Made by a program: the position numbers and the translations under genes
Notes under the pieces: model-generated
Seen by the model: only the letters and a program-made list of their open reading frames with translations
What the model was told of the DNA's origin: nothing
Databases searched by the model: none
Shown: one piece after another, positions 35,155 to 57,956 of the stretch
Numbering within the stretch: the first letter of the stretch is position 1
Layout: each line of letters opens with the position of its first letter
Source of the DNA: Chitinophaga alhagiae
Lineage (GTDB): Bacteria > Bacteroidota > Bacteroidia > Chitinophagales > Chitinophagaceae
Direction of reading: 5' to 3'
DNA: 64,000 bases
NCBI RefSeq assembly: GCF_003568665.1
Contig: NZ_QXMH01000001.1
Span: 1,240,001 to 1,304,000 of the forward strand

Positions 35155-35229
35155 GGCCCTGTAGTTCAATGGATAGAATAGAAGTTTCCTAAACTTTAGA
35201 TCCAAGTTCGATTCTTGGCGGGGCTACCA
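35155..35229 (+). tRNA. tRNA-Arg (anticodon CCU)
   Basis: Folds into a full cloverleaf. Acceptor GGCCCTG pairs with CGGGGCT; U8-A9 follow; the D stem is GTTC/GAAT; the anticodon stem GAAGT/ACTTT encloses TTCCTAA with anticodon CCT; the T arm is CCAAG-TTCGATT-CTTGG; discriminator A and an encoded CCA end at 35229. It decodes AGG. Confidence 0.97.
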
Positions 35230-35235
35230 AAGAAA

Positions 35236-35284
35236 GAAAAGCGGAATATTCCAGTCCCGAACCTGGTATTCCGCTTTTCTTTTT
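35236..35284. terminator. Bidirectional terminator between tRNA-Arg and susD-like gene
   Basis: 13-bp stem GAAAAGCGGAATA / TATTCCGCTTTTC with further pairing (CCAG/CTGG) towards the loop. On the plus strand it is followed by six T for the tRNA. On the minus strand it lies 19 bases after the susD-like stop, with a weaker TTTCTTTC tail. Confidence 0.85.
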
Positions 35285-35302
35285 CCTCACAAATTGTTTA
35301 TG

Positions 35303-36913
35303 TTATTCCCAGGCCGGATTTTGTGTCAATTGCGGGTTTAGCGCCAGTTCATTCACTGGCAAAGGCCATAAATAATCTTTAGCCGGATCGAACCGCCTGT
35401 TGGCAGAAGATTGCAATAAGATGTAATTATCAGGCGTAAGCTTCGGGCTTGCAGTTGAAAAACCTGGTTCGTTTGCAAAGAAATAGCTACCCAAAACAGC
35501 TTTGGGAAGTTCTGTTTCTGCGGTCTTCCATCGAATCAGGTCCCAATACCGGAAACCCTCCATAGCCAGTTCCACCCTTCGTTCACGGCGAAGTTCGTTG
35601 CGCATGTCCAGGCCATTATCCTGAACAAAGGCATTACTGAGATCGGGCAAATCCGCCCGCGCGCGTAAAAGATTGATACTTGCATTAAGGTCCGCATCGG
35701 AAATAGATCCGTTAAGTTCATAAAGCGCTTCGGCATATACCAACAGTACTTCTGCATACCGGATAATCGGATAGTCTATAAACGTAACCCCGGTACCCAC
35801 TGTATGGGCATCTACAAATTTCCGCGGACAATAGGCAGTGGTGTGGTAAACCAGGGCAGGCGCCTGAAAAGGTACACTGTAGAAATATGGATCTCCTGCT
35901 TTCATTATAGTTGCATTCAACCGCTCATCCCGGTTAACGAATGTTTCAGAAAAAGTGGCAGGCGCTATATACTGGGGCGAAATCTCAATTGGCAATCCGT
36001 CTTTCATCAGGTAAGCATCTACCAACGCCTTGGTTGCATTTGTTGCACCGTTTATCAGCGTTCCGCAATTATAGCCGGAAATATTATCGGCAATATCTCT
36101 GCCGTATTGCCGTACCAGTATGTTTTCTCTATTTTGCCGGCCCTCGCCCTCATACTGAAAAAGTCCGAAATAGCTATTAAACAACTGATGTTCGCCGCTC
36201 TCCATAACTCCTTTTGCAGCCGCTACCGCCAATGAAAGGTGGTTGTTGGGATCTCCGTACTGATGGAACTTTGAACGGGTGCCCTCAAATAAAGCAACCC
36301 TCGCTTTAAACGCCAGTGCTGCCGTATTGGTGATACGTCCATATCCTGCAGCTCCCCTTACAGCAGGTGTAGGAAGCTTTTCAACGGCATAGTCCAGGTC
36401 TGCATAAATTGCTTCGTATACCTGCTCTTTGGGTGTTCGGGGAGCTGTTAGCTCAGGTGAATCTTCTTTTAGCAAGCCTAAAATAAGAGGAACGTCGCCA
36501 AATTTCTGAACAAGCTGAAAATAGGCCCATGCACGAAAGAAACGAGCTTCCGCTACATACATATTTACAATCTGCGAAGGTACACCTGCATTCTCTCCTA
36601 ACGGCGCCTTCTCTACAATATTAGATGCCGCCCTTATCATCCTGTACGGCGTACTATAATCACCGGATGTTGCCGGCGCAAGCCTGGAACCATCGCTTAT
36701 TGATTGTGGCGCTGTAGCAAACCCGTCATCCGACCAGTTGTCAGCAGTTACCAACAGGCTGGGCAGATAAGTATACAGATAATTGGTAGCGGCCTTCAGA
36801 TCACGCTCGTTCTTCCAGAAAGACCCGTCACTAAGATTGGTTTCCGAGACCCTGTCAACATCGCAAGCGCTTAACAAGCATAGCGAGATGACAAAATATA
36901 ATAGATTCTTCAT
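35303..36913 (-). CDS. SusD/RagB family nutrient-binding lipoprotein
   Basis: Outer-membrane lipoprotein of 536 residues that caps a SusC barrel and captures its substrate, usually a glycan or peptide. The signal ends in the lipobox LLSACD (Cys about residue 17). The SusD TPR core includes NIVEKAPLGENAGVPSQIVNMYVAEARFFRAWAYF (in part), and the C-terminal RagB part has LRRERRVELAMEGFRYWDLIRWK and the final YLWPLPVNELALNPQLTQNPAW, which are family hallmarks. It follows the susC-like gene by 34 bases. No glycoside hydrolase, peptidase or sulfatase gene is attached, so the substrate is unknown. Confidence 0.95.
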   Translation of the reverse strand: MKNLLYFVISLCLLSACDVDRVSETNLSDGSFWKNERDLKAATNYLYTYLPSLLVTADNWSDDGFATAPQSISDGSRLAPATSGDYSTPYRMIRAASNIVEKAPLGENAGVPSQIVNMYVAEARFFRAWAYFQLVQKFGDVPLILGLLKEDSPELTAPRTPKEQVYEAIYADLDYAVEKLPTPAVRGAAGYGRITNTAALAFKARVALFEGTRSKFHQYGDPNNHLSLAVAAAKGVMESGEHQLFNSYFGLFQYEGEGRQNRENILVRQYGRDIADNISGYNCGTLINGATNATKALVDAYLMKDGLPIEISPQYIAPATFSETFVNRDERLNATIMKAGDPYFYSVPFQAPALVYHTTAYCPRKFVDAHTVGTGVTFIDYPIIRYAEVLLVYAEALYELNGSISDADLNASINLLRARADLPDLSNAFVQDNGLDMRNELRRERRVELAMEGFRYWDLIRWKTAETELPKAVLGSYFFANEPGFSTASPKLTPDNYILLQSSANRRFDPAKDYLWPLPVNELALNPQLTQNPAWE

Positions 36914-36947
36914 GTTCGATTTATTTTAAAGTGACAGTAGAACTGTA

Positions 36948-39900
36948 TCAAAATGAAATATTTAGCCCAATAGAGGCAGTAGCCGCAAATGGATATTCAA
37001 ACTCAACATTATTGGTATATTCCGGATTGAAAACCCGATCAAAAATGCCAAGGTTTGTAAATGTTAAAAGGTCCTGGCCACTAAAATAGATCCTGGCCCG
37101 CGCTATATGGACCTTTTTTAACAGACCATCTGGCAAAGAATATCCTAATTGAATATTCTTTAAGCGGATGTATTTTCCATCCAGCATCCATTTATCAGAG
37201 AAGACATAATTATGCTGACCTCCGGTATAAGGACGGGGAAAAGCTGCATCCCGGTTTTCTTCCGTCCAATAGTCCTTATGGATTGCTAATGGCTGACGTG
37301 GTGCTGTTACCTGTGGGTTAACAGTATTTACTGTTGCATAAAAGGTCCGTAATCCTACTCCCTGAAAAAAGACGTAAAAATCGAATCCTTTCCAGTCAAA
37401 ACCGCCGTTGATCCCGAAATTATAACGTGGCTGATCGGTTCCAAGATAAACAAGATCACCATGGTCTTCAAACAGTCCGCCGCCAATATTAATGCGGTTG
37501 TCTCCATTCTGATCTACATACCTGACATCTCCTACGCCTGTTCTGGCATTGTAGAATGGCGCTTTATCCACCTCATCCTGCGATTGATAGTATCCATTTG
37601 TCTGAAACCCCCAGATGGAACCCAATGGATAACCCTCCAGTATATCCACTATTCCGGCATTAACCACCTTCCTTCCGGCATAGCTCATTACTTTATTCCG
37701 GTTGTCTGACAGGTTAAACCCGATTGAATAGTTAAAATTCTTTCCGATCTTGTCCCGGAAATTGGCCTCTATCTCCCAGCCCCAGGATTTAAGTTCTCCG
37801 TTGTTAGTACGCGGGGTAGCAACACCAAAGGTTGCCGGCAATTGCAACGGCGTGAGCATGTTCTTGTTAAATTTCACATAGTAATCCGCGTTAACAGATA
37901 ACTTGCCGTCAAACATTCCGAAATCAAAACCACCGTTGGTTGTTTCTACAGTCTCCCATGTGAGGTTTGAGGAAGGGACTACGCTTTGATAGAAGTACAT
38001 GGTACGGTCTTCTGAAGCGCCCAATACCAGGTTATTGCTTCGTGAAAGCATATTCATAAAATCATAGTTGCCGATAATATTTCCAAGCGCGCTTCCTAAT
38101 TGCCCCCATGACGCCCGGAGCCTTAGTGAAGAGACAAAGGAGTTTTTAGGAAACCAGTTTTCCTTATGAATATTCCACCCGGCAGATACTGAAGGAAATG
38201 TCTTTACCCGTAAACCCGGTGCCAACCTGGAGCTTTCATCAGAGCGAAGGGTTGCTTCAAAGAGATACCTGTTTTGATAGTTATAATTCAGCCGGCCGAA
38301 ATACGATTTATATGCGTATGTATTAATTGTCTGGCTATTCGTTTTGGTAGCATCCTCTCCAAGATTAAGCGTTGGCAGGTCATTGCTGGCCAGGTTCTGT
38401 GCCGAAGTGTACACAGATGAATTTCTGCTATCTTCAAATTGGTAACCAACCAGTAAATGGAAGTTGTGTTTCGCTCCCAGGCTTAAAGAATAGTCGGCCA
38501 GCAATTGCAGGTTGTTGGTGCTGTACACGCCACGGGTTACTTCGAACTTATTTGTCTGATTGATGTAAGCCACCGGGAAATAGCGCTGCCACAACTCAAC
38601 GGTACGGGAGAAATGGTCCCGGTCTGACCGGTTATAGGTTGCGCCGTAGATGCCACGCAGCTGCAAGCCTTTTACAACATCCGCTATTTTAAGTGTAAAA
38701 ACACCATCAAAGTTATTATCGTTACGGTTATTGTAACCTCCCTCTTTAAGGTAAGCATAAGATTGGTTTGCAGAAAACGAGCCCTCGCCGCTAAGCCTGC
38801 CTTCCGGAGTAAATATAGGCCATTTTTGCCGGAGACGAAGTGCCTGGTAAAGCAATGCAGAAACATCCAACGACGGCATTTCAGTCTTTTTACGCGTATA
38901 AGAGATCCTCGACTCAACAGATACATGCTTGGTAAGCTTTGCACCCAAATTCACCCGTCCATTATAGCGGTTATGCTTGTCCGGGCCAACTTTAAAGGCG
39001 CCATCTTTGGAGTAACTCCCCAAGGAAACCAGGAAGTTCAGCTTTTCCGTTCCACCGCTGACCGCTATGTTATGCGTTTGCATCGTGGTAACATCACGTA
39101 TGGTTTGGCTAACAAAGTCCTTTTGATTCAGATAAACATATTTGTTAGTATCAACCGGGTCCACGTAATATTCCACCCCGTCAATTATCCGCTGAATATC
39201 TGCTGCCGGGTAGGGCGGCGCCAGGCCTGCATTTTCAGCTGACAAATTGCTGAAATAAGCTTCCTCCAGCAAGGTCATCCGCCTGGGAACATTCAACATC
39301 TTGTCTGCGCCAAACAGGTTGGAATATTCAATTCTTGTTTTTCCCGCCACTCCTTTTTTTGTAGTGACCAGGATCACGCCACCCGCGGCCTGGGCGCCAT
39401 AGATGGCCGCCGCAGCCGCATCCTTCAAAAAGGTCACGTTATCAACATCATTGGGATTTAATGATTGCAGGGTGCCAATAGGCGCAGAAACACCATCTAC
39501 AATTAAAAGAGGGTTCACATTTCCGTTTGCAGATGTTGCCCCCCTCAATTGTATCGAGATGTTTTCATTGCCTGGTTGTCCCGAGGTACGGGTAACTACA
39601 AGTCCGGGAGATGTTCCCTGCAGGGCAGTGGCAAGATTGCTGACTGGTCTGTTTTCGATACTTTTTGAATCAACTGTTGATACCGCCCCTGTCAGATTAA
39701 TTTTCTGCTGTGTTCCATATCCCACCACAACTACTTCATTCAATGCCTCGGTATTTTCGATCAATGTAATATGCACCTGGTTTCGGTTGCCAACGGAAAG
39801 CTCCTGTGTATGGAAGCCTACAAATGACACTACAAGCACTGCCCCTGAATCAATATTCTTCAGCATAAATTCACCATTAGCATCGGTGTTAGCTGCATTG

Positions 39901-40358
39901 TTAGTCCCCTTCACCCGGATTGAAGCGCCAGGCAAAGGCGCTCCTTTTTCATCGGTCACTTTCCCCTTTATATCTGCAGGAACTATTGCTTTCTCAGTAC
40001 CGCTTTGTTTAATGACAATAAAATTATCTGAAATAGTGTACGTCAAGGGTTGGTTGCCAAAGCAAATTGCCAGCACTTTTTCAATGCTTGCGTTCCGGAC
40101 ATTAATGGTAACAGGATGGGCAATCTTTAATACCGCGTTATTATACAAAAAGTCATAACCGCTTTGGGTCCTGATCTCATCAATTATTTCACCCAAAGGG
40201 GCATTGACCTTTTTCAGGGTAATTTGCTGTGCGAAGGAACTTGCACTTACCTGCATAAATGCAGTAGTTAGCAGAATTACAATCAGTTTCATAACCAGTA
40301 CGAATTGATTTAGAGCATGGCGGCCGCCACGACTCCTGAAATGTAATTTTAAATGCAT
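36948..40358 (-). CDS. SusC/RagA family TonB-linked outer membrane protein with STN domain
   Basis: A 1136-residue outer-membrane transporter. Signal peptide region LIVILLTTAFMQVSASSFAQQ; secretin/TonB short N-terminal domain (STN) about residues 48-115; carboxypeptidase-regulatory domain about 130-205 (IKGKVTDEKGAPLPGASIRV); TonB-box region EALNEVVVVGYG; plug (GAVSTVDSKSIENRPVSNLATALQG); then the 22-strand barrel ending TASIGLNISF. The STN domain marks a receptor that signals to a FecR anti-sigma factor, which is encoded directly upstream. Start ATG 40358 gives the basic N terminus typical of the group. The leader before it carries an antisense terminator. Confidence 0.95.
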   Translation of the reverse strand: MHLKLHFRSRGGRHALNQFVLVMKLIVILLTTAFMQVSASSFAQQITLKKVNAPLGEIIDEIRTQSGYDFLYNNAVLKIAHPVTINVRNASIEKVLAICFGNQPLTYTISDNFIVIKQSGTEKAIVPADIKGKVTDEKGAPLPGASIRVKGTNNAANTDANGEFMLKNIDSGAVLVVSFVGFHTQELSVGNRNQVHITLIENTEALNEVVVVGYGTQQKINLTGAVSTVDSKSIENRPVSNLATALQGTSPGLVVTRTSGQPGNENISIQLRGATSANGNVNPLLIVDGVSAPIGTLQSLNPNDVDNVTFLKDAAAAAIYGAQAAGGVILVTTKKGVAGKTRIEYSNLFGADKMLNVPRRMTLLEEAYFSNLSAENAGLAPPYPAADIQRIIDGVEYYVDPVDTNKYVYLNQKDFVSQTIRDVTTMQTHNIAVSGGTEKLNFLVSLGSYSKDGAFKVGPDKHNRYNGRVNLGAKLTKHVSVESRISYTRKKTEMPSLDVSALLYQALRLRQKWPIFTPEGRLSGEGSFSANQSYAYLKEGGYNNRNDNNFDGVFTLKIADVVKGLQLRGIYGATYNRSDRDHFSRTVELWQRYFPVAYINQTNKFEVTRGVYSTNNLQLLADYSLSLGAKHNFHLLVGYQFEDSRNSSVYTSAQNLASNDLPTLNLGEDATKTNSQTINTYAYKSYFGRLNYNYQNRYLFEATLRSDESSRLAPGLRVKTFPSVSAGWNIHKENWFPKNSFVSSLRLRASWGQLGSALGNIIGNYDFMNMLSRSNNLVLGASEDRTMYFYQSVVPSSNLTWETVETTNGGFDFGMFDGKLSVNADYYVKFNKNMLTPLQLPATFGVATPRTNNGELKSWGWEIEANFRDKIGKNFNYSIGFNLSDNRNKVMSYAGRKVVNAGIVDILEGYPLGSIWGFQTNGYYQSQDEVDKAPFYNARTGVGDVRYVDQNGDNRINIGGGLFEDHGDLVYLGTDQPRYNFGINGGFDWKGFDFYVFFQGVGLRTFYATVNTVNPQVTAPRQPLAIHKDYWTEENRDAAFPRPYTGGQHNYVFSDKWMLDGKYIRLKNIQLGYSLPDGLLKKVHIARARIYFSGQDLLTFTNLGIFDRVFNPEYTNNVEFEYPFAATASIGLNISF

Positions 40359-40365
40359 AAATTTG
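40358..40365 (+). promoter_or_regulatory. Antisense -7 box at the susC-like start
   Basis: TAAATTTG on the plus strand matches TAnnTTTG exactly and points away from the susC-like gene towards the orphan terminator at 40446-40480. No -33 TTTG is seen. It would start a transcript at about 40371 that is antisense to the susC-like mRNA leader. Confidence 0.35.
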
Positions 40366-40370
40366 GTTTG

Positions 40371-40480
40371 TTGGGTTTTAGACCTTTAATGTTTGATTCC
40401 AGTCAATAGTTTTAATCCTTATAGGAAAGGCAAGCTCAACATTCGCCAAGTCCCGATGCCAGTCGGGATTTGGTTTTTTT
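40371..40480 (+). ncRNA. Candidate cis-antisense small RNA in the susC-like leader
   Basis: Inferred from a plus-strand -7 box (40358-40365) and a perfect plus-strand terminator (40446-40480) inside the gap between the minus-strand fecR-like and susC-like genes. The predicted RNA of about 110 bases is fully complementary to the susC-like mRNA leader. Antisense RNAs that repress susC homologues are known in Bacteroides fragilis (DonS). No sequence similarity is claimed; evidence is position and signals only. Confidence 0.35.
40446..40480 (+). terminator. Orphan plus-strand terminator between fecR-like and susC-like genes
   Basis: 11-bp stem CCAAGTCCCGA / TCGGGATTTGG (one G-T pair) with a 6-base TGCCAG loop, followed by seven T on the plus strand. 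Both flanking genes are on the minus strand, where the T-run becomes an A-run placed before the hairpin, so it cannot end their transcripts. Confidence 0.8.
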
Positions 40481-40491
40481 GTGCTGCGTAC

Positions 40492-41625
40492 TTATTTGGT
40501 CACAATCACCTTTCTTCCCTCTAGTTTAAAGTGAACATCACCTGTATATTCCAACATCTTTAAAATACCGGAGATATCTCTTGATCTTGATATCTTACCC
40601 GAGAAGGTAAGGCCTATAGCGGGCTTATCCCGGTATTCAACATCTACATCGTACCATCTTGCTATCTTTGCCATGATACTTTCGAGGCCTTCATTAAATT
40701 TGAAGTAGCCGTTTTTCCAAGCCACCACACCCTCCAGATCCACATCACTGGAAACTTTCAGCTTATTCCCTGATAGCTGCGCCTGCTCTCCCGGTTCCAG
40801 CATTTTTGATCCCAAAGCAGTAACAATCCTCACAGACCCTTCCAGGAGCGTAGTTTGGACTATCCTTTCATCGGCATAGGCCATTACATTAAAATGTGTT
40901 CCCAATACTTCAACTGTTTGCCCGCGACTTTCCACCCGGAATGGCATCTCCTTGTTATGTGCTATTTCAAAATAGGCTTCCCCGGTCATCTGTATCTTTC
41001 TTTCGTTACCAACAAACCGTGTTGGATAGGTAATACTAGATGAAGCATTGAGGAATATCACCGAACCGTCCGGCAGTCTTACCTGCCACTGTCCACCAGC
41101 AGGGGCCTCAATAGAATTGTATTCCAGTGGCAAACTTTCATTTGTGCTACCAGTTGCATCATATACCAGTTGTCCATTGGTAGTTTTTGTAATTTTCACT
41201 CCAGACCGGTTGGCAACCTCACCGTTGGCTGCATCAGCAAGAATAATTTTTTCCCCGTTGCCTAACGTCAAAATTGCCTGATCCTTCCCAGGCCTGATCT
41301 CTTTACCGGCTACCGCAACCTGCTCACGGGGATCCGACCTTAAAACATATAAGTAGGTGCCTACTCCTAACAGGATCAGCAAAACGGCGGCGGCTGGGAT
41401 TTGCCACCTTTTGGAAAAATAAGAGGGTTTCTTCTGAGTATTGATATTACTCAATAAACGCGCAGCCAGCTGCTCTTCAGACGCGTCACCTGCGGCCCAG
41501 GTAACGGGCTCTTCCGTGTCCAGGTCATACCATTTATCCAGCAGCTCCTTTTCCGATGGTGTAATAGTGCCCTTCATCCACTTATCCGCCAGTTCATTTA
41601 GCTGCGCTCGTGTTGGTCGTGTCAT
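40492..41625 (-). CDS. FecR family anti-sigma factor
   Basis: A 377-residue membrane regulator that transmits the SusC signal to the ECF sigma factor. N-terminal cytoplasmic domain (about 1-75) with LADKWMKGTITPSEKELLDKW; membrane segment about residues 76-94 (AAAVLLILLGVGTYLYVL); FecR domain with GGQWQVRLPDGSVIFLNASS and MTGEAYFEIAHNKEMPFRVE; C-terminal DUF4974 domain (about 300-377) with FNEGLESIMAKIARWYDVDV. It lies between the sigma factor and the susC-like gene, the usual order. A perfect 11-bp hairpin covers the region just before its start codon. Confidence 0.95.
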   Translation of the reverse strand: MTRPTRAQLNELADKWMKGTITPSEKELLDKWYDLDTEEPVTWAAGDASEEQLAARLLSNINTQKKPSYFSKRWQIPAAAVLLILLGVGTYLYVLRSDPREQVAVAGKEIRPGKDQAILTLGNGEKIILADAANGEVANRSGVKITKTTNGQLVYDATGSTNESLPLEYNSIEAPAGGQWQVRLPDGSVIFLNASSSITYPTRFVGNERKIQMTGEAYFEIAHNKEMPFRVESRGQTVEVLGTHFNVMAYADERIVQTTLLEGSVRIVTALGSKMLEPGEQAQLSGNKLKVSSDVDLEGVVAWKNGYFKFNEGLESIMAKIARWYDVDVEYRDKPAIGLTFSGKISRSRDISGILKMLEYTGDVHFKLEGRKVIVTK

Positions 41626-41634
41626 AAGATAACT

Positions 41635-41661
41635 CGTTTCTTATATAGTGTATAAGAAACG
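41635..41661 (-). repeat. Perfect 11-bp hairpin in front of fecR-like start
   Basis: CGTTTCTTATA / TATAAGAAACG around a 5-base loop, in the gap between the sigma factor stop and the fecR-like start. On the minus-strand mRNA it occupies about positions -36 to -10 relative to ATG 41625. There is no T-run after it, so it is not an ordinary terminator; it could limit fecR translation, stabilise an mRNA end, or be a protein-binding site. Confidence 0.8.
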
Positions 41662-41702
41662 GGAACTACCCTATATTGAACAAAAAAAATAAATGGATAT
41701 TT

Positions 41703-42296
41703 CTACGCCCTCGTTAAAAGCGTAGCGGCAAATGCCAGCATGTAAACGAATCTATTGATATAAATACGCAGGAACTTAAGTGCCCTGGAGATATGGGCTT
41801 CTACTGTTTTAGGGGAAATATTCAGGTACCGTGCTATCTCTTTATCGCTCATGCCTCGTTCCCTGCTCATCCGAAATATCAACTGGCACTTCTCAGGCAG
41901 GGCTTTCACTGATCTTTCAATTTCATTCCGCAGCTCATTAAAACTGAGCCATTGCTCAGTAGCGTTGTCTTCGGCATGCAACGTATGTACATCTTCTGCA
42001 TAGCCAGCGGCTTCCCGTTTATTGGAAGCCATCTTTGCCATCACCTTGTACCGTATGATTGCGGCGATATAGGTATGAAAACTGTTCTGTATTTTTATTC
42101 TATGCCGGCTTTTCCAGATATCTGTAAATGCATCCTGAACAACCTCTTCTGCATCAGCATGGGATTGCAGCTTTATGACTGCCTTGTATAGCATACGCTT
42201 CCAATACCGATGGTACAAAATAGTAAACGCCTCTTCGTTGTCCTGAACCAACAGAAGATACAATTCATTATCGGTGAAAAAGCTATACGCGCTCAT
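41703..42296 (-). CDS. ECF RNA polymerase sigma-70 factor
   Basis: A 197-residue extracytoplasmic-function sigma factor of the Bacteroidota group paired with FecR and SusC. Region 2 spans about 20-80 (FTILYHRYWKRMLYKAVIK, HADAEEVVQDAFTDIWKSR). Region 4 spans about 125-185 (LPEKCQLIFRMSRERGMSDKEIARYL, ISPKTVEAHISRALKFL). ATG 42296 is used since the 20 residues before it are unlike the family. A short hydrophobic tail (YMLAFAATLL) follows region 4, which is unusual but seen in some relatives. It leads the sigma-fecR-susC-susD locus. Confidence 0.93.
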   Translation of the reverse strand: MSAYSFFTDNELYLLLVQDNEEAFTILYHRYWKRMLYKAVIKLQSHADAEEVVQDAFTDIWKSRHRIKIQNSFHTYIAAIIRYKVMAKMASNKREAAGYAEDVHTLHAEDNATEQWLSFNELRNEIERSVKALPEKCQLIFRMSRERGMSDKEIARYLNISPKTVEAHISRALKFLRIYINRFVYMLAFAATLLTRA

Positions 42297-42437
42297 GGTA
42301 TATTGAAGTAAAGTAAGAAAAAAAGATTGATATCTACAAGCCTGTGAATTGGCCAACGGGTTCCGGCCAGCCGGCCAAAAGCGGGGCAGAACTATTGGCC
42401 CGGTTAAAAGTACCGGAAGATAAAAGGAGTGAGCAGC

Positions 42438-51371: not shown

Positions 51372-51512
51372 CATCAAATTTGCAAAAATTCCGACACGAA
51401 AATCAAATCTTTTTTTTATTATTGTAGCACACCCTTACCAAAGGGCTTGCCATCATTAACCCCGTCTTCTGAAAAGCCACCGTACTTATTTTTAATCATT
51501 CTATTTGATTGC

Positions 51513-52967
51513 ATGAAGGTGGATATGTTTTTCATATTGCTGAGTGAGCGGGAAGTTACAATATCGATATATGGTAATGAGGGACCTGTTTTGGTCCCTG
51601 ATCTGGACGGGGGCTATGGCTTGCCTCTTTCGTTAACCTATTATGGCAAAGATGTATGGCAAAATGGTGCTGATCATACTACTCTCCGGGCCGGCACCCT
51701 ATCTTCTCTTCGTATGCTGACAGCCGGTGAACGTACATTGTTGTTCAACGATGAAAAAATAAGTACCTCAACAGCATTGACGATTTTGTTTCAAAGGGCC
51801 AAGGAATCAGTAGAACTGTTTCTGGGATATCCCGTACATCGCGTAGCGATAGGTGCAGGCTGCAATGCTACATCTTTTCAGAAACAATACCTTTTGCATG
51901 CGGTAGAAGAAGCTGGTCTTCACCTGCATTCTATTTTCACCCAAACAGAAGCCCTGGCTATCGGCCATGAATACACAAATGGCTGCATAGATGTTATCAA
52001 CACCGTCGCTCTTTTTGTTGACGAAGGCAGGAGTGAAATGGGTGTTTTTGAAATTGGAGATGGTGTCATAGAAAGTCAGTTTTTATATGGCATTGAACAC
52101 TTCAGCATCTCACATCTGGTAGATGATCTTATTAACAACTGCCTGAACAGGTGCCGCTTCACAGGTAGTCATAATAATATAGATATGGCCAGATTACGGA
52201 TAAACTGCAGCCAGGCAATAAAAAAGATTAATCTTACCGGTACGTACCATATCCATGTGCAGGATATTTGGGGAAATACCATTTTGACTGTCGCACTGAC
52301 CCTCAACGACATGTTGAACATCCTGGACAAGCCTCTTCAGGGACTGGTTAATTCGATCAAAGAACCTTCGCCTTACCTATATAATCCTGAACGTGCATTG
52401 ATCGTGGATTGCCTACCGGCGTTCCGCAATTTTATACAATACTTTCTCTCAAAAAAATTCTCCGGCTGGAGAATTACTATGCTACCCGGTGGGGCCGTTA
52501 GTGGAGGAGCCAGATATACCGGGGTATTAGGAGGGAAAGTACGCGATCCGGTACTCCTTGCTGCAACGTCCCATGCTTACGGCATCATCACAACCAATGA
52601 TCATTTCTGTGCTATAATAGCGGAAAAGACAACAATACCTACGTATAAGGAAGAAAAATTCCTTCTTGATACTTCAGATGCATTTGTAGAAGTGCATATA
52701 CTGGAAAGCAGAGATTGCAGCGGGGCAGATTGCCAGCTATTGGGTACGGTGGTATTAGCTCTGCCAGAAAGCCACAGAAACATAAGATCAGAAGTGTCTG
52801 TCAGGATTGATATAGCGAATACCTTTAAAATAAAATGTACAGCGCAGTTGCTGAACAGCGCCAGTTCGCCTGTTCACGCTGAGTTGCCTGCCAGGTACGA
52901 ACTTCCCGCTATTTCCAGCCTGGCCACCACACTTGAAAGCCAGTCAGTGAATGAGCATGATGGCTAG
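51513..52967 (+). CDS. Degenerate Hsp70-like protein
   Basis: A 484-residue protein that aligns with DnaK from end to end of the ATPase domain and the beta-sandwich substrate domain, yet lacks the nucleotide site. Shared landmarks are GYPVHRVAIGAGCNATSFQ with TQTEALAIGHE (DnaK ...PAYFNDAQR and EPTAAALAYG), FEIGDGVIES, KVRDPVLLAATSHAYGI, the entry TTIPTYKEE, and VEVHILESRDCSGADCQLLG. The first phosphate loop is replaced (residues 9-15), the second reads VDEGRSE (169-175) in place of DLGGGT, and the adenosine motif reads IVDCL (297-301) instead of VGG. The helical lid is missing. It is therefore probably a non-hydrolysing adaptor. ATG 51513 is chosen; a near -7 box TATTTTTA at 51487-51494 lies just upstream. 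Confidence 0.82.
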   Translation: MKVDMFFILLSEREVTISIYGNEGPVLVPDLDGGYGLPLSLTYYGKDVWQNGADHTTLRAGTLSSLRMLTAGERTLLFNDEKISTSTALTILFQRAKESVELFLGYPVHRVAIGAGCNATSFQKQYLLHAVEEAGLHLHSIFTQTEALAIGHEYTNGCIDVINTVALFVDEGRSEMGVFEIGDGVIESQFLYGIEHFSISHLVDDLINNCLNRCRFTGSHNNIDMARLRINCSQAIKKINLTGTYHIHVQDIWGNTILTVALTLNDMLNILDKPLQGLVNSIKEPSPYLYNPERALIVDCLPAFRNFIQYFLSKKFSGWRITMLPGGAVSGGARYTGVLGGKVRDPVLLAATSHAYGIITTNDHFCAIIAEKTTIPTYKEEKFLLDTSDAFVEVHILESRDCSGADCQLLGTVVLALPESHRNIRSEVSVRIDIANTFKIKCTAQLLNSASSPVHAELPARYELPAISSLATTLESQSVNEHDG

Positions 52968-53044
52968 GGAGATCAGCTTCCCCTGTATGCACGTCAGATA
53001 CCCTTCCGGGCAGGAATATAAACTGTTAAAATAAACAATTTAAG

Positions 53045-54670
53045 ATGAGCAAATCACATCAGGCATCAGCAACAAAGAAAGTGAGTTCCATTCTCCTTTC
53101 CCTCAGCGCGCTCATATATCTCTGTACATTTTCTTATTGGTTCGTGGCCCAGCATAGCCAGGGCTCTGTTGTCAATATCCTGATGGGTCGTATTGCAGAC
53201 AATCCGTTTATTGCAAACAATTCAGACTGGGCCGCCTTTCTTCTACATCTTGCTGTAACCGGAACAGGGCTTATTTTATACATTAAAAGCGGCGTGCTGC
53301 AGTATGTCGGAAACTGGATAGCCAGGCAACACAAGGTAGCCGGCTTCTTTTATACCCAGAGTGCCCAAGCCAAAACCGCCATTATCATATTCAAGGTCTT
53401 TATTGGATGCGCCTGCGTATTTCTGCTGTATAACATTCTGTTGAGAACCATGCAGGGCTTAGTTCCCAGAATAGACTTCAGCATGCTCATACTGCTGGTA
53501 ACTATCGGCGGGCTGGGCTGGTTTGTGACCTACCCCGAACCACAGAAACTGCCCGGTTTTGACGGGAACCTGGATAATCTCAACAAAACCATGTGGCTTC
53601 GCCTCAGTGATAACCAGGGCGCATATGTGCAGGACAGGGAAGATCGGGAAACATGGTATCTTGTTAAAAATAAGCGTGAAATAAACGTATCCTACACAGA
53701 AACCTACCTGTTCTATGAACGTACCTTTAGCAACCAGATCAGGGAAGACATTATCAGCGAGGATATCATCGGCAAGCTATTTTACTCGTTCAGGGCAGAG
53801 GCGCTCATGGACAATTTTCCGCAAACAACTTCTACAGAAAAGCTCCAGGCACTGTACCGGAACTTCAATAGCCAGGAAGGACTGAAAAAGCTTCTCTTCC
53901 TCGCAATTGACAAAGGCGCCTTGCTAAAGGGTAGCCGGAATGCTATTTTTGAAAGCCTGAACAAGTACTTTGATACAGATCCCAACATCCTGCATAACCA
54001 GGGCCATCAACGGAACCGCGACTTTGAGCGCATATTGGCGGGTTACGGCAATTTTACTGACATAAGCGGGGGCATCGCAAAAGAAATAGCGCTCTATATT
54101 GAAAAACTCTTAGGGAAGGCTAATATGTTCAAGATCAGTTTCGAGATTACCAGAACTGCATTCAATATGGATGAAATGCTAAAGGAAATTGTAGACAGCC
54201 GCAAACGTACCGCGCACCAGATCACACAGGGCAACATAGATACACAAAAGAGCATTGTAGATACGGCTATAAGAATAGCCACCACGCCAGGTGCATCACC
54301 GGGCCGTCTTAAAAACATGATAGACCTGCTTGGAGGGCTGGGGCAAACGTTCTCCCAACAACCTAAACAGTTCTGGGTAGCGGATCATACCAACGAAACA
54401 ATGCCAGAAAATGCCCTGAAAAAAGTAACGGCAGCATCGCATGACGTTATCAACGCCATTTTTGGAATTATTGAATCTAATCCTACACCTGAGCAACTTT
54501 CCGAAGCAGTAGCGCTTTCAACTCCATATCTGAGCCAGAACGCCATTCCCCCTGACGCTTTTATCAAGCGTTTCTTTGCCAAGATGAGTAACGAGAAAAC
54601 TGAACGTACACATGAAGCCTATATTAAACTGGCAGAAGACACCCTGCTGGAATTTACACACAAAGCATGA
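53045..54670 (+). CDS. Four-TM membrane protein with large soluble domain, unknown family
   Basis: A 541-residue protein that I do not recognise. Four membrane segments lie near the N terminus (about 13-34, 60-80, 111-133 and 145-163), followed by about 370 soluble, mostly alpha-helical residues that by the positive-inside pattern should face the cytoplasm. The soluble part starts with MWLRLSDNQGAYVQDRED and contains AIDKGALLKGSRNAIFESLNKYFDTD and ITQGNIDTQKSIVDTAIRIA. No known catalytic motif is visible. It stands 77 bases after the Hsp70-like gene, and its stop overlaps the start of the ATPase gene (ATGA), so it is likely the membrane anchor of the same complex. Confidence 0.75.
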   Translation: MSKSHQASATKKVSSILLSLSALIYLCTFSYWFVAQHSQGSVVNILMGRIADNPFIANNSDWAAFLLHLAVTGTGLILYIKSGVLQYVGNWIARQHKVAGFFYTQSAQAKTAIIIFKVFIGCACVFLLYNILLRTMQGLVPRIDFSMLILLVTIGGLGWFVTYPEPQKLPGFDGNLDNLNKTMWLRLSDNQGAYVQDREDRETWYLVKNKREINVSYTETYLFYERTFSNQIREDIISEDIIGKLFYSFRAEALMDNFPQTTSTEKLQALYRNFNSQEGLKKLLFLAIDKGALLKGSRNAIFESLNKYFDTDPNILHNQGHQRNRDFERILAGYGNFTDISGGIAKEIALYIEKLLGKANMFKISFEITRTAFNMDEMLKEIVDSRKRTAHQITQGNIDTQKSIVDTAIRIATTPGASPGRLKNMIDLLGGLGQTFSQQPKQFWVADHTNETMPENALKKVTAASHDVINAIFGIIESNPTPEQLSEAVALSTPYLSQNAIPPDAFIKRFFAKMSNEKTERTHEAYIKLAEDTLLEFTHKA

Positions 54671-57255
54671 AAGATCTGTCTTCATTTGCAAATAATGTGA
54701 TGGCCTTTACATCTGCCTATACTCCCTGCACGTTGTTCAACTGGCGGCAGGACGGATTTGAGGAGCCCATTACCTGTGCCACGGAAAGTGCCACACACCT
54801 GTTGATTGCCTATGAATTGAAGCAGGTGCCCGAACTCCAGACAACACCAGACGTAAAACAGCAGGACCAGTACCGGGAACATCTCCTGAAACAAAAGACT
54901 TTTATTGACACGGTAGCCAGCGTGTTCCTCCGGCCTAAAAAAGAAACAACCGCTTTTCTCGATTTACGCATCCGGAATAATCCCGCTACCCGTACGGTGC
55001 AATGTTATGTATTGCTGCGGGTAGTACTGCGCAATGCTTCCGTGTTCTATGATAGCAAACGGTTGCGTGAAGAGTTCCGGCAACTGGTGCCGGAAGACTA
55101 CCCGCTATATGAATTAAGCCAGGAAGAAATACAAGAGCTGCTGCTCCTGAGTAACCAACGCGTAGTTGAAATACGAAAAAAACAACAATTCATACCGGTC
55201 GGCCTCGGGTACAATGCGGATGAAATGATTGTAGCGCCGTCGGGGCTTTTGAACTGGGATGAAAAATCGCGTTTCTATTTGCCTTCTTCGTCTTACCTGC
55301 CATCACAACAGTATAACCTGGCCGGCCTGTACAGGATGCTGCAGAACATTGATGAAACGGTGCAAGTCCGTATCTCGCTCGGCTTGTGCAGTTTGTTTGA
55401 ATATGAAAAGAACCTGGCGCTGCAATATTTCAAGATGCTCAGGTCTACCTATAAAGACATTACATCTGCCGAGCTGGATGCCAGTTTCAAAGCTTTTTCA
55501 AAATATGTGACGGCGCCTGAATTATTTTCACTCAAACTGCAGGTAGCCGCCCGTTCGGAAATAACCGCCATGGCCGTGGGCAATTCACTTTCAGCACAAA
55601 TGGAAGCGGGCAACACCAGCTCTCCAGGTCAACTGACATGCCTGGCCCTGAACAAAGAATATGCCCATGCAACAATAAAGGCAGACTGGGAGGAATGCAA
55701 TCATTATTTTTACCCAGCCAGCGGCCATGAGCATTATGATGGCCTGGACGACACGCTACATTCCTTTATCCGCCGTTTGCCCTACTTGTGTGACGCCGCA
55801 GAAGCCGCTGCCGTATTTCGCCTCCCTGTTGCCAACATTGGCGGGCTTCCGGGCATGATAGCCAAGCCCCCAAGGCCTTTTTTTCAGCCGAACCCCCGGA
55901 GCAGAAAAACGGAAGAGATAGAAATAGGCCGGGTTATTACCGCCCCTCCCTCCGAAATCAATAATGAGAAAGCGCCGCAATATACTCTGCCTGTGACGGA
56001 CCTCACTAAACATGGGCTCATAGTAGGTTCAACAGGCTCAGGAAAAACCAACACCACTCTTAACTTTGTAAAAGAACTGACCAAAAAGGGCATCCCTTTT
56101 TTATTGATTGAGCCTGTAAAATCAGAATACTACGATGAACTAAGCCCCTATTTCAAGCCCGGAGAATTACGGCGCTTCAATTTTAAAAGACCTTTTCTGG
56201 AAGATGGTTCCTGCAACCCGGAGTACCTGCGGTTCAACCCGCTTATACCCATACCAGGCATATCCAGCATGCAACATATCTCCTATATTAAAGGTTGCTT
56301 CACGGCCGCATTTCCAATGCACGGTGTTATGCCGATGATATTGGAAGAATGCCTGACCCGGCTTTACCTGGAATTGTTTGACTTTAATGAAAGGCCACTT
56401 TTTGATGCGGAACGTTCACCGGTTTACCTTCATGACCGGGCGTCTGAAACGCTTTCCGAAGAAGAAAAGAACCAGCACCGGCTGATGAGCCTGGGTTGGC
56501 TGAAAGCCGCTGTTGATCTCCACCTGGAAGATGCCGAGATGTTCACGGACGAAGACAGGGCCAACATGGGCAGCTACCTGAAACGCCGGGCGGAAAAGCT
56601 ATCAAAGGGCGTGTTGGGCAATGCCTTTCTGCCTGAGCTGTGGCTGGATGCAGAAGGTCAGCCCTGTACAATAGATAATGCTATCAACACCCTGCTTACT
56701 CAATCTGTGATCATAGAACTGGAAGCCCTGCCGGATAATGATGAGAAGGCCCTGATAATGGCATTTTTGCTTACCTATCTGTTTGAATACCGGCAGACAA
56801 TGCCATCTATGAAAAGCATTGAAATGGCGGAGAAAGACGGCTTTGATCCTTGCAAACATATACACATCACCATTATTGAGGAGGCGCATCGCCTGCTGAG
56901 CAGTGGCAATATGTCTACTGTCAGCGGCGGTGAAGATGGCGTGTCTGCCATGGACAGCAAATCCAAATCCATCAGCCTGTTCATTGACATGCTTGCGGAA
57001 ATCAGGGCAAAGGGAGAGGGGATTTTTATCGTTGAGCAGATACCTACCAAACTGGTTTCAGATGTGATCAAAAATACTAATCTAAAGATCATGCATCGCA
57101 TTACCTCCAAAGATGACCGGCATTATCTGGGTGAGGCAATGAACATGAACGAACAGCAGAAAAATTATGTTAACAATCTAAAAACCGGGGAAGCTGTCAT
57201 TTTTGAAGAGCAATTGGACAAACCGGTTTTTGTTAAAATGAACAGGTTCATATGA
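54667..57255 (+). CDS. HerA/FtsK-superfamily ATPase with novel N-terminal half
   Basis: An 862-residue ATPase. The C-terminal half is a HerA/DUF87-type motor: Walker A GSTGSGKT (about residues 454-461) preceded by THGLIV-like sequence, FLLIEPVKSEYYD after it, Walker B HITIIEEAHRLL (about 733), and the sensor/arginine region EIRAKGEGIFIVEQIPTKL (about 775-795) with NTNLKIMHRITSKDDRHYLGE. The N-terminal 430 residues match nothing I know; they are soluble and may be an oligomer or substrate domain. HerA motors pump DNA or peptides as hexamers and occur in DNA repair, conjugation and many defence systems. Both ends are coupled by ATGA overlaps with its neighbours. Confidence 0.88.
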   Translation: MKDLSSFANNVMAFTSAYTPCTLFNWRQDGFEEPITCATESATHLLIAYELKQVPELQTTPDVKQQDQYREHLLKQKTFIDTVASVFLRPKKETTAFLDLRIRNNPATRTVQCYVLLRVVLRNASVFYDSKRLREEFRQLVPEDYPLYELSQEEIQELLLLSNQRVVEIRKKQQFIPVGLGYNADEMIVAPSGLLNWDEKSRFYLPSSSYLPSQQYNLAGLYRMLQNIDETVQVRISLGLCSLFEYEKNLALQYFKMLRSTYKDITSAELDASFKAFSKYVTAPELFSLKLQVAARSEITAMAVGNSLSAQMEAGNTSSPGQLTCLALNKEYAHATIKADWEECNHYFYPASGHEHYDGLDDTLHSFIRRLPYLCDAAEAAAVFRLPVANIGGLPGMIAKPPRPFFQPNPRSRKTEEIEIGRVITAPPSEINNEKAPQYTLPVTDLTKHGLIVGSTGSGKTNTTLNFVKELTKKGIPFLLIEPVKSEYYDELSPYFKPGELRRFNFKRPFLEDGSCNPEYLRFNPLIPIPGISSMQHISYIKGCFTAAFPMHGVMPMILEECLTRLYLELFDFNERPLFDAERSPVYLHDRASETLSEEEKNQHRLMSLGWLKAAVDLHLEDAEMFTDEDRANMGSYLKRRAEKLSKGVLGNAFLPELWLDAEGQPCTIDNAINTLLTQSVIIELEALPDNDEKALIMAFLLTYLFEYRQTMPSMKSIEMAEKDGFDPCKHIHITIIEEAHRLLSSGNMSTVSGGEDGVSAMDSKSKSISLFIDMLAEIRAKGEGIFIVEQIPTKLVSDVIKNTNLKIMHRITSKDDRHYLGEAMNMNEQQKNYVNNLKTGEAVIFEEQLDKPVFVKMNRFI

Positions 57256-57956
57256 CTAAAAAAGATAAAACACTGAAGGATAAAGCAGGAGCCATAGGAG
57301 GAACATTCATGCACCTTGCTCTTGGATTGACAGATCTTCACGGCCAACGGCAAGCCTATATGGCGCAACTGGAAGAACTGGCAAAAACGAATCAGTTGCT
57401 CTTGCAAGAGCGAAAGGCACCCGAAATGCCCAAGTGGGTGAAAAAGAGTGGCGAACCGGCAGCCAAGCCGGCCCATACCATGCCTAAAGATCTCCTGGAA
57501 GGCATGAGCGAAGCATACATGCAGGGGAAGGAAATACCGCGCAAAAAAAAGAGCATAGACAATCAAAACAATAAAACCATGAGTACTGCAAAAGATAAAG
57601 CCGCCCTGATCAGGCAAAACGCGAACGACATTACTAAAAAAGCAGACGCCATACAGAAAAAACTGAGTGATGCAAAATCCGACAACAAAAAAAAGGATAC
57701 TATTATCAAAAAACTGGAAAAGGGGACCACAACCAGCTCTAATGACCTCAACAAAAAGAGATTGCTTGACATGAAACCTGCCAATCTCCCAAAAAAAGAA
57801 ACGCGATTGGATAAATTCAAAGAGAACAAACCCGGCAACCCCACCAAGCAAGACGTTAAGGAGGCGTTCAACATTAATAAGAAAGATATGCTGGGTGACA
57901 GCACCAATAAGAAAGGGCCCGATAAACCCGGCGCACCCAAACCGAAGTTCAGATAA
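57252..57956 (+). CDS. Lysine-rich, largely disordered protein
   Basis: A 234-residue hydrophilic protein with very high Lys content. A helical N-terminal part (about 12-55, LALGLTDLHGQRQAYMAQLEE) is followed by a linker and a predicted coiled-coil stretch (about 110-160, KAALIRQNANDITKKADAIQKK), then a Lys/Pro/Asn-rich tail ending PGAPKPKFR. It has no catalytic motif or membrane segment. It could bind DNA or RNA, act as an adaptor, or be a substrate of the upstream motor. An internal ATG (residue 110) could give a shorter form. Its start overlaps the ATPase stop (ATGA). Confidence 0.7.
   Translation: MTKKDKTLKDKAGAIGGTFMHLALGLTDLHGQRQAYMAQLEELAKTNQLLLQERKAPEMPKWVKKSGEPAAKPAHTMPKDLLEGMSEAYMQGKEIPRKKKSIDNQNNKTMSTAKDKAALIRQNANDITKKADAIQKKLSDAKSDNKKKDTIIKKLEKGTTTSSNDLNKKRLLDMKPANLPKKETRLDKFKENKPGNPTKQDVKEAFNINKKDMLGDSTNKKGPDKPGAPKPKFR

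Follow-up and report, generated by a model that had tools for sequence, protein, structure and literature searches.

Motor ATPases of the HerA/VirB4 type drive the movement of DNA or proteins, be it in conjugation, in defence or when chromosomes segregate. Here I analyse a four-gene cassette that encodes such a motor together with a degenerate Hsp70-like protein, a membrane protein and a lysine-rich protein, found in a 64,000-nucleotide stretch of the genome of Chitinophaga alhagiae (Bacteroidota; contig NZ_QXMH01000001.1, positions 1,240,001 to 1,304,000). This whole stretch is called the window, and positions in it count from its first nucleotide. Described systems that resemble the cassette in one part or another include the HerA-SIR2, HerA-DUF4297 and DndH motors, the VirB4 ATPases (TrwK) and the archaeal Ced machine, which the available text of PMC11868833 describes as built of VirB4- and VirB6-like parts with no outer-membrane complex. 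A further comparison is offered by polymorphic toxin systems whose export motor is of the FtsK/HerA kind, such as the type VII secretion system (T7SS) (available text of PMC3482391). Hsp70 and tubulin are included in GTPase-centred conflict systems (available text of PMC7159879), and the Hsp70-like proteins of CoCoNuT systems, with their nucleotide-binding and substrate-binding domains (NBD/SBD), are reported to have degenerate Walker A-like motifs (available text of PMC11090510).

An initial annotation of the window held that no named system fits the cassette, and this stands: neither the PADLOC and NCBIfam models searched nor the literature found gives a match. PADLOC detects no partner gene of HerA-SIR2, HerA-DUF4297, Dnd, Zorya, Druantia or MADS among the four cassette genes, and the lack of a SIR2, DUF4297 or Dnd partner separates the cassette from the first three motors named above. 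Compared with HerA/FtsK-superfamily defence motors, the ATPase of the window carries about 400 residues ahead of its motor domain and has a putative SPFH-like membrane partner. Like the GTPase-centred and CoCoNuT systems, the cassette joins an Hsp70-like protein to a predicted conflict system, but in the available text of the two papers the core is a GTPase or McrB protein, FtsK-type domains are rare inactive effectors, and nothing pairs a HerA/VirB4 motor with Hsp70 or an SPFH-like protein (PMC7159879, PMC11090510). As in the T7SS toxin systems covered by the available text of PMC3482391, the motor adjoins toxin-like genes in some relatives; unlike them, it has an Hsp70-superfamily partner, no WXG/LXG substrate appears among the genes put to Pfam, and the last protein of the cassette lacks a toxin domain. 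Among the papers listed in searches of the open-access literature, a scope that excludes all bioRxiv preprints and most subscription papers, none was found to describe a HerA-type motor with an Hsp70 or SPFH protein as its partner.

A conserved trio in Bacteroidota

The cassette consists of four genes in a row.

51513-52967, plus strand: pseudo-Hsp70 (484 aa), an accessory gene outside the conserved trio
53045-54670, plus strand: membrane protein (541 aa): four long helices at the N-terminus, then at about residues 180-420 a predicted SPFH-like domain
54667-57255, plus strand: HerA/VirB4-like motor ATPase (862 aa)
57252-57956, plus strand: lysine-rich low-complexity protein (234 aa)

Four-base ATGA overlaps link the last three genes, and a 77-base gap separates them from the Hsp70-like gene, which may start at the ATG at 51513 or at an in-frame TTG at 51447, where the mechanical open reading frame (ORF) opens. 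The order membrane protein, motor, low-complexity protein recurs at four other Bacteroidota loci: on a Hymenobacter plasmid (L003), in Hymenobacter polaris (L036), in a Sphingobacteriales metagenome-assembled genome (L037) and in a member of the Flavobacteriaceae (L038). By BLAST, the window's membrane protein is linked with those of L003, L036 and L038 (the tblastn match to the Hymenobacter plasmid protein has an E-value of 5e-28), and that of L037, which is 17% identical, was assigned by position. The trio profiles were built from the trio sequences themselves, so their scores are no independent test. The pair of membrane protein and ATPase proposed in the initial annotation is thus found side by side in other genomes, and the two very probably form a real and hitherto undescribed unit.

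That annotation also took all four genes for one conserved system, a claim it tied to their co-occurrence in other genomes. The trio recurs with no Hsp70 match beside it at L003, L036, L037 or L038 (0/4), and because of this the four-gene unit is dropped and the three-gene core stands. When the pseudo-Hsp70 was searched against the whole genomes of L036, L037 and L038, it found frames of 634-651 aa outside the trio loci, which were taken as DnaK. The genes upstream of the trio differ from locus to locus: the Hsp70-like gene in the window, a Wadjet-type set at L037, two unassigned genes at L038 and nothing evident at L003 and L036. Two Pseudomonadota loci (L039 and L042) have a many-helix protein before the motor and a low-complexity protein after it, and no profile match connects their membrane proteins with that of the window.

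The cassette is rare and patchy. A full-length motor homologue was found in 1/395 Bacteroidota genomes, which is the window's own, and a search of 35 further genomes of the genus gave none. The order of L038 gave 1/395 genomes (that of L038 itself), and the order of L036 gave 2/390, namely L036's own genome and one with a partial match (6.6e-54). In viral data the motor is represented by one distant viral locus and two unannotated phage records that span about half of it, and no homologue of the membrane protein was found in viral contigs.

Motor and membrane protein

The motor exceeds the Pfam cut-offs for HerA_C (32.6 bits against 22) and DUF87 (31.7 against 23.2), and its Walker A, Walker B and sensor Q are invariant over an alignment of 41 sequences. 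The fold of its motor domain fits the HerA/FtsK/VirB4 superfamily, with DndH, VirB4 and HerA nearest; full-length TrwK aligns with it over 570 residues at a root-mean-square deviation of 13.4, a loose superposition on which a VirB4-type N-terminal domain is a candidate feature. PADLOC matches the motor to generic HerA and mad8 models only, none of the remaining three cassette proteins has a match there with an E-value under 0.2, and ten relatives' proteins return three weak matches only (DrmD 0.0015, PDC-M61B 9e-4 and LeoBC 9e-6). The top NCBIfam model of the motor is CedD, and this, with the VirB4-type fold, favours a reduced DNA-transfer machine similar to archaeal Ced, in which a VirB4-like motor and a multi-helix membrane protein would move DNA. 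One trio copy is plasmid-borne (L003), and the lack of an outer-membrane complex in Ced, as cited above, also agrees with such a machine. However, the CedD match reaches 83.8 bits, far under its cut-off of 600, the Hymenobacter plasmid of L003 is typed as non-mobilizable, and the membrane partner is SPFH-like by prediction, its fold search having no VirB6 row (an absence from the list that excludes nothing). DNA transfer is, in my estimate, unlikely.

An AlphaFold model of the membrane protein contains four long helices (residues 3-33, 60-81, 106-136 and 142-160), which I read as putative membrane helices. The four-transmembrane protein of the initial annotation is retained to that extent, and what follows the helices is now seen differently. 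A fold search with the model lists SPFH proteins over about residues 180-420, HflK/C-FtsH complexes included, and I predict with moderate confidence a four-helix anchor joined to an SPFH-like (stomatin/prohibitin/flotillin) domain. The protein would resemble prohibitin, stomatin, flotillin and HflK/C in this domain, and differs from them in the four helices ahead of it, in adjoining a HerA/VirB4-type motor and in the absence of any Pfam match up to E 1, Band_7 included. The profile check suggested for this protein accordingly gave no Pfam family; it did recover homologues beside motors in other genomes. An hhalign comparison with three SPFH proteins of the same genome, made with shallow profiles, found no match.

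Protein quality control is a typical setting of SPFH and Hsp70 folds, and the cassette might be a membrane proteostasis or stress module. An SPFH-like scaffold would then work with the motor to sort membrane proteins or extract them, in the way that HflKC works around FtsH, and the Hsp70-like protein would present clients. The HflK/C-FtsH complexes among the fold matches are consistent with this, as is the recurrence of Hsp70-superfamily genes beside related motors (see below). However, Pfam finds no protease domain in the four genes, the patchy distribution is unlike that of housekeeping genes, and no HerA/VirB4 motor is known to unfold proteins for degradation. I consider a proteostasis role decidedly improbable.

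The gene after the motor

The lysine-rich protein reaches the cut-off of no family, and all its Pfam matches fall below threshold. A low-complexity gene also comes after the motor at the four other trio loci. The post-motor proteins of L003, L036 and L037 are related by BLAST (cluster 15); those of the window and L038 lie outside this cluster, so that their kinship rests on position and composition. A search with a stretch of the last protein of L036 returns only the Hymenobacter plasmid. A toxin module in the last protein of L037 was considered and rejected: it gave one weak match (E 0.07), to an unannotated stretch beside a haemagglutinin and an immunity gene, and matched no solved structure.

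Across the wider motor family, 18 post-motor genes were put to Pfam (L003, L036-L039, L042, L044, L045, L047, L056, L060, L076, L083, L084, L089, L095, L098 and L116). These were picked by eye, some for a visible nuclease motif, and proportions among them are therefore not frequencies. Four of the 18 have a nuclease-toxin domain over the cut-off and lie directly after the motor: LHH at L056 (12142-13163) and L084 (11272-12078), and colicin-type DNase/WHH at L083 (11339-12502) and L089 (10412-11020). A SUKH immunity gene comes next after the L056 nuclease. At L098 a nuclease-toxin match falls just under the cut-off, L076, L095 and L116 give weak below-cut-off metallopeptidase matches, and the other ten give nothing convincing. 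The C-terminal 91 residues at L042 match a Leptospira protein annotated as polymorphic-toxin-type (2e-8). In Chloroflexota, related post-motor proteins occur at eight loci (cluster 3: L060, L063, L065, L067, L069, L070, L075 and L088), and the one tested, L075 (12133-15701), has an NHLP-clan peptide-precursor domain over the NCBIfam cut-off and just under that of Pfam. Genes that look radical-SAM-like by motif lie near the post-motor genes of L070 and L088.

Export of the last gene's product would account for the toxin slot as well as for a gene order that does not vary, and I tentatively favour a membrane-embedded motor that handles this product, an export-type machine. Its SPFH-like subunits would assemble into a ring or cage in which four helices provide the anchor to the inner membrane. 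The motor, probably hexameric to judge from its fold, would dock on this ring and thread or extract its substrate. The substrate may be the product of the last gene, whose slot is held by nuclease-toxin genes in some distant relatives, and the pseudo-Hsp70 could act as a fixed adaptor that grips a peptide from either the substrate or the motor.

Several observations weigh against export. The last protein of the cassette has no toxin domain in Pfam, PADLOC or NCBIfam, the gene after the cassette is poxB-like with no visible immunity gene, and the nuclease-toxin examples belong to motors that fall outside the clade of the window. Neither a channel nor an outer-membrane component was recognised, in an analysis made with no profile search for type IV secretion genes. 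The SPFH assignment comes from one moderate-confidence model built on five sequences and has neither Pfam nor profile-profile backing. Finally, two of the four trio loci (L036 and L037) adjoin defence genes, a count made without a random-locus baseline.

Defence genes near the trio

The L037 trio comes after the Wadjet-type set, with DUF3375, JetC-like and JetD_C genes (a small gene between them was left out of the test), and Upx-like and Hhe/PDC-S37-like genes lie near it. At L036 (15257-19941) a class II pAgo together with its helical-nuclease partner, and also a PDC-S02 gene, stand about 2-6.6 kb downstream of the trio. These two of four loci make defence the main rival to export: in an anti-phage or anti-plasmid system the HerA-type motor would work at the membrane to sense invading DNA or pump it, the SPFH-like protein would organise or act on the membrane, and the basic low-complexity protein would bind nucleic acid. 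Defence would explain the neighbours at L036 and L037 and also the rarity of the motor (1/395 Bacteroidota genomes; 0/35 in the same genus), and the motor fold is near DndH and anti-phage HerA. However, no nuclease, NADase or other effector was recognised in the four genes, the neighbours in the window look metabolic, and PADLOC offers nothing beyond the generic motor models given above. The four L038 upstream genes tested with PADLOC match a regulator model only (the L003 neighbours were left out of PADLOC), and no JetD (Wadjet) was found in the window's own genome. Defence is thus a credible reading, if on the doubtful side, and it is compatible with export; the two are not exclusive.

The pseudo-Hsp70 and the wider motor family

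The Hsp70-like protein scores 45.8 bits against the Pfam HSP70 cut-off of 20.6 (E 3.6e-12), and its residues 85-434, including the substrate-binding beta domain, match DnaK, the best solved relative (1e-15). In an alignment with three DnaK sequences the protein conserves neither phosphate loops 1 and 2 nor the adenosine motif nor the linker aspartate; it lacks part of the nucleotide-binding domain and stops soon past the substrate-binding beta domain, with no alpha-helical lid. A separate full-length DnaK is encoded in the same genome (881 bits). The protein is thus, at the level of its motifs, probably a pseudo-chaperone that has lost ATP cycling, in agreement with the earlier suggestion of a binding module rather than a chaperone. 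Among 120 database proteins its best match, its own entry aside, is 25% identical over 71% of its length, in a search that scores only candidates sharing short words and that nearer kin may escape.

The initial annotation regarded Hsp70-like partners as non-standard beside HerA motors, which is true of the four trio loci and not of more distant relatives, where they are common. To a set of 80 loci, less five without a usable motor ORF (L040, L041, L048, L059 and L094), L003-L006 and L116 were added; ten of the 81 loci in the set (L116 counted) had less than 2 kb upstream and were dropped, leaving 71 scored. At 36 of the 71 (L004, L047, L060, L061, L063, L065, L067, L069-L072, L075, L076, L080, L083-L086, L088, L090-L093, L095, L096, L098-L100, L102, L103, L105, L107, L110-L112 and L115) a same-strand Hsp70-superfamily gene lies within five genes upstream of the motor, in 30 cases in the first slot. 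By phylum, the partner is found at 11/14 loci in Bacteroidota, 11/17 in Chloroflexota, 6/7 in Cyanobacteriota plus the Anabaena plasmid L004, 3/4 in Acidobacteriota, 3/6 in Bacillota and 1/5 in Pseudomonadota, and at none of the remaining loci, five Actinomycetota and four archaea included. Such genes occupy 40/336 upstream slots against 3/335 downstream (Fisher 1e-9, nominal as the loci are related).

Eighteen of the 36 partners were detected by a profile from the window's pseudo-Hsp70 and 119 of its database matches. The other 18, mostly from Bacteroidia and cyanobacteria, were detected by profiles built largely from those same genes, and the two put to Pfam (L076 and L072) scored below the cut-off; this second half is therefore less certain. 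The Hsp70-superfamily gene of the Chloroflexota locus L060 has a C-terminal FHA domain, and genes near several Hsp70-partner loci presumably encode protein kinases, to judge from a motif. Related genes just upstream of the motor at L047, L073, L101, L106, L107 and L108 include some that seem J-domain-like; Hsp70 genes lie near such candidates at L047 and L107, and a J-like gene neighbouring that cluster in L107 has no J-domain match in Pfam.

On the Anabaena plasmid pANACY.04 (L004, 1-10075), the motor gene is preceded by genes for Hsp70, for a protein with double-GTPase (DO-GTPase) matches under the cut-off and for a GUN4 protein, and by a GTPase gene. At L043 there is a Tubulin_2 match under the cut-off. 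Because of these two loci, part of the wider family may overlap the published GTPase systems.

A tree of 94 motor domains contains one clade (SH-aLRT 100), spanning five phyla, in which 33 of the 35 scored members have an Hsp70 partner. On this tree, made by a quick search with no bootstrap, the partner label needs 6 changes, while shuffled labels need 24.3 on average. The clade of the window has 13 rows, of which the other four scored have no Hsp70 partner, so that the window's Hsp70 pairing is best read as a separate acquisition; the remaining eight rows are database proteins without known neighbours, among them the closest motor relative (P0005, 59% identical, from a contig of 10.5 kb).

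Base composition and origin

The four genes have G+C contents of 0.446, 0.459, 0.477 and 0.447 in order, at percentiles 0.7, 1.4, 3.5 and 0.7 of 143 ORFs of at least 200 aa from twelve 20-kb stretches of the same genome (mean 0.542, sd 0.030). Third-position G+C is milder, at percentiles 0.7, 5.6, 5.6 and 5.6 of the same background. The flanking SDR gene, at 0.548, falls on percentile 54.5, and the poxB-like gene has a high G+C content of 0.586, so the early description of overlapping plus-strand genes more AT-rich than their flanks agrees with these values and with the coordinates. The whole-cassette G+C of 0.462 is equalled or undercut in 3.0% of 336 same-length sliding windows, which makes the composition suggestive, not conclusive.

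I saw no repeat pair flanking the cassette and no transposase among the ORF starts inspected, no profile search being aimed at transposases. Promoter-like sites number 10 against 11.2 in shuffles, and terminator-like sites 10 against 7.5 (sd 2.9). A poxB-like gene is present in 49/60 genus genomes, and eight of its flanking regions, taken from best matches, were compared for presence of the cassette. None of the eight matches cassette genes; the same SDR/poxB arrangement was not recovered, an SDR homologue lying on the opposite side of poxB in 4/8, and no clean empty site was among them. Composition and distribution together support lateral arrival of the cassette, with Hsp70 added in this lineage. 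Elsewhere in the window (35155-42356), a tRNA-Arg is followed by a low-G+C block (0.43-0.47) with genes that seem to encode SusC/SusD and sigma/anti-sigma factors.

Significance

A wider reading, speculative and on balance rather unlikely, is a new protein-delivery class in which a HerA/VirB4-type motor and an Hsp70-superfamily substrate receptor, replaced by an SPFH membrane cage in the window's clade, would export polymorphic toxins or peptides across many phyla; the window would then hold a second, independent recruitment of an Hsp70 that is catalytically dead. If true, a class of motors found recurrently beside Hsp70-superfamily proteins, sometimes with toxin genes and in Bacteroidota with an SPFH-like membrane partner, would suggest a new kind of machine for delivery or defence. 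The chaperone fold would then also have been co-opted repeatedly into such machines, once after loss of its ATPase.
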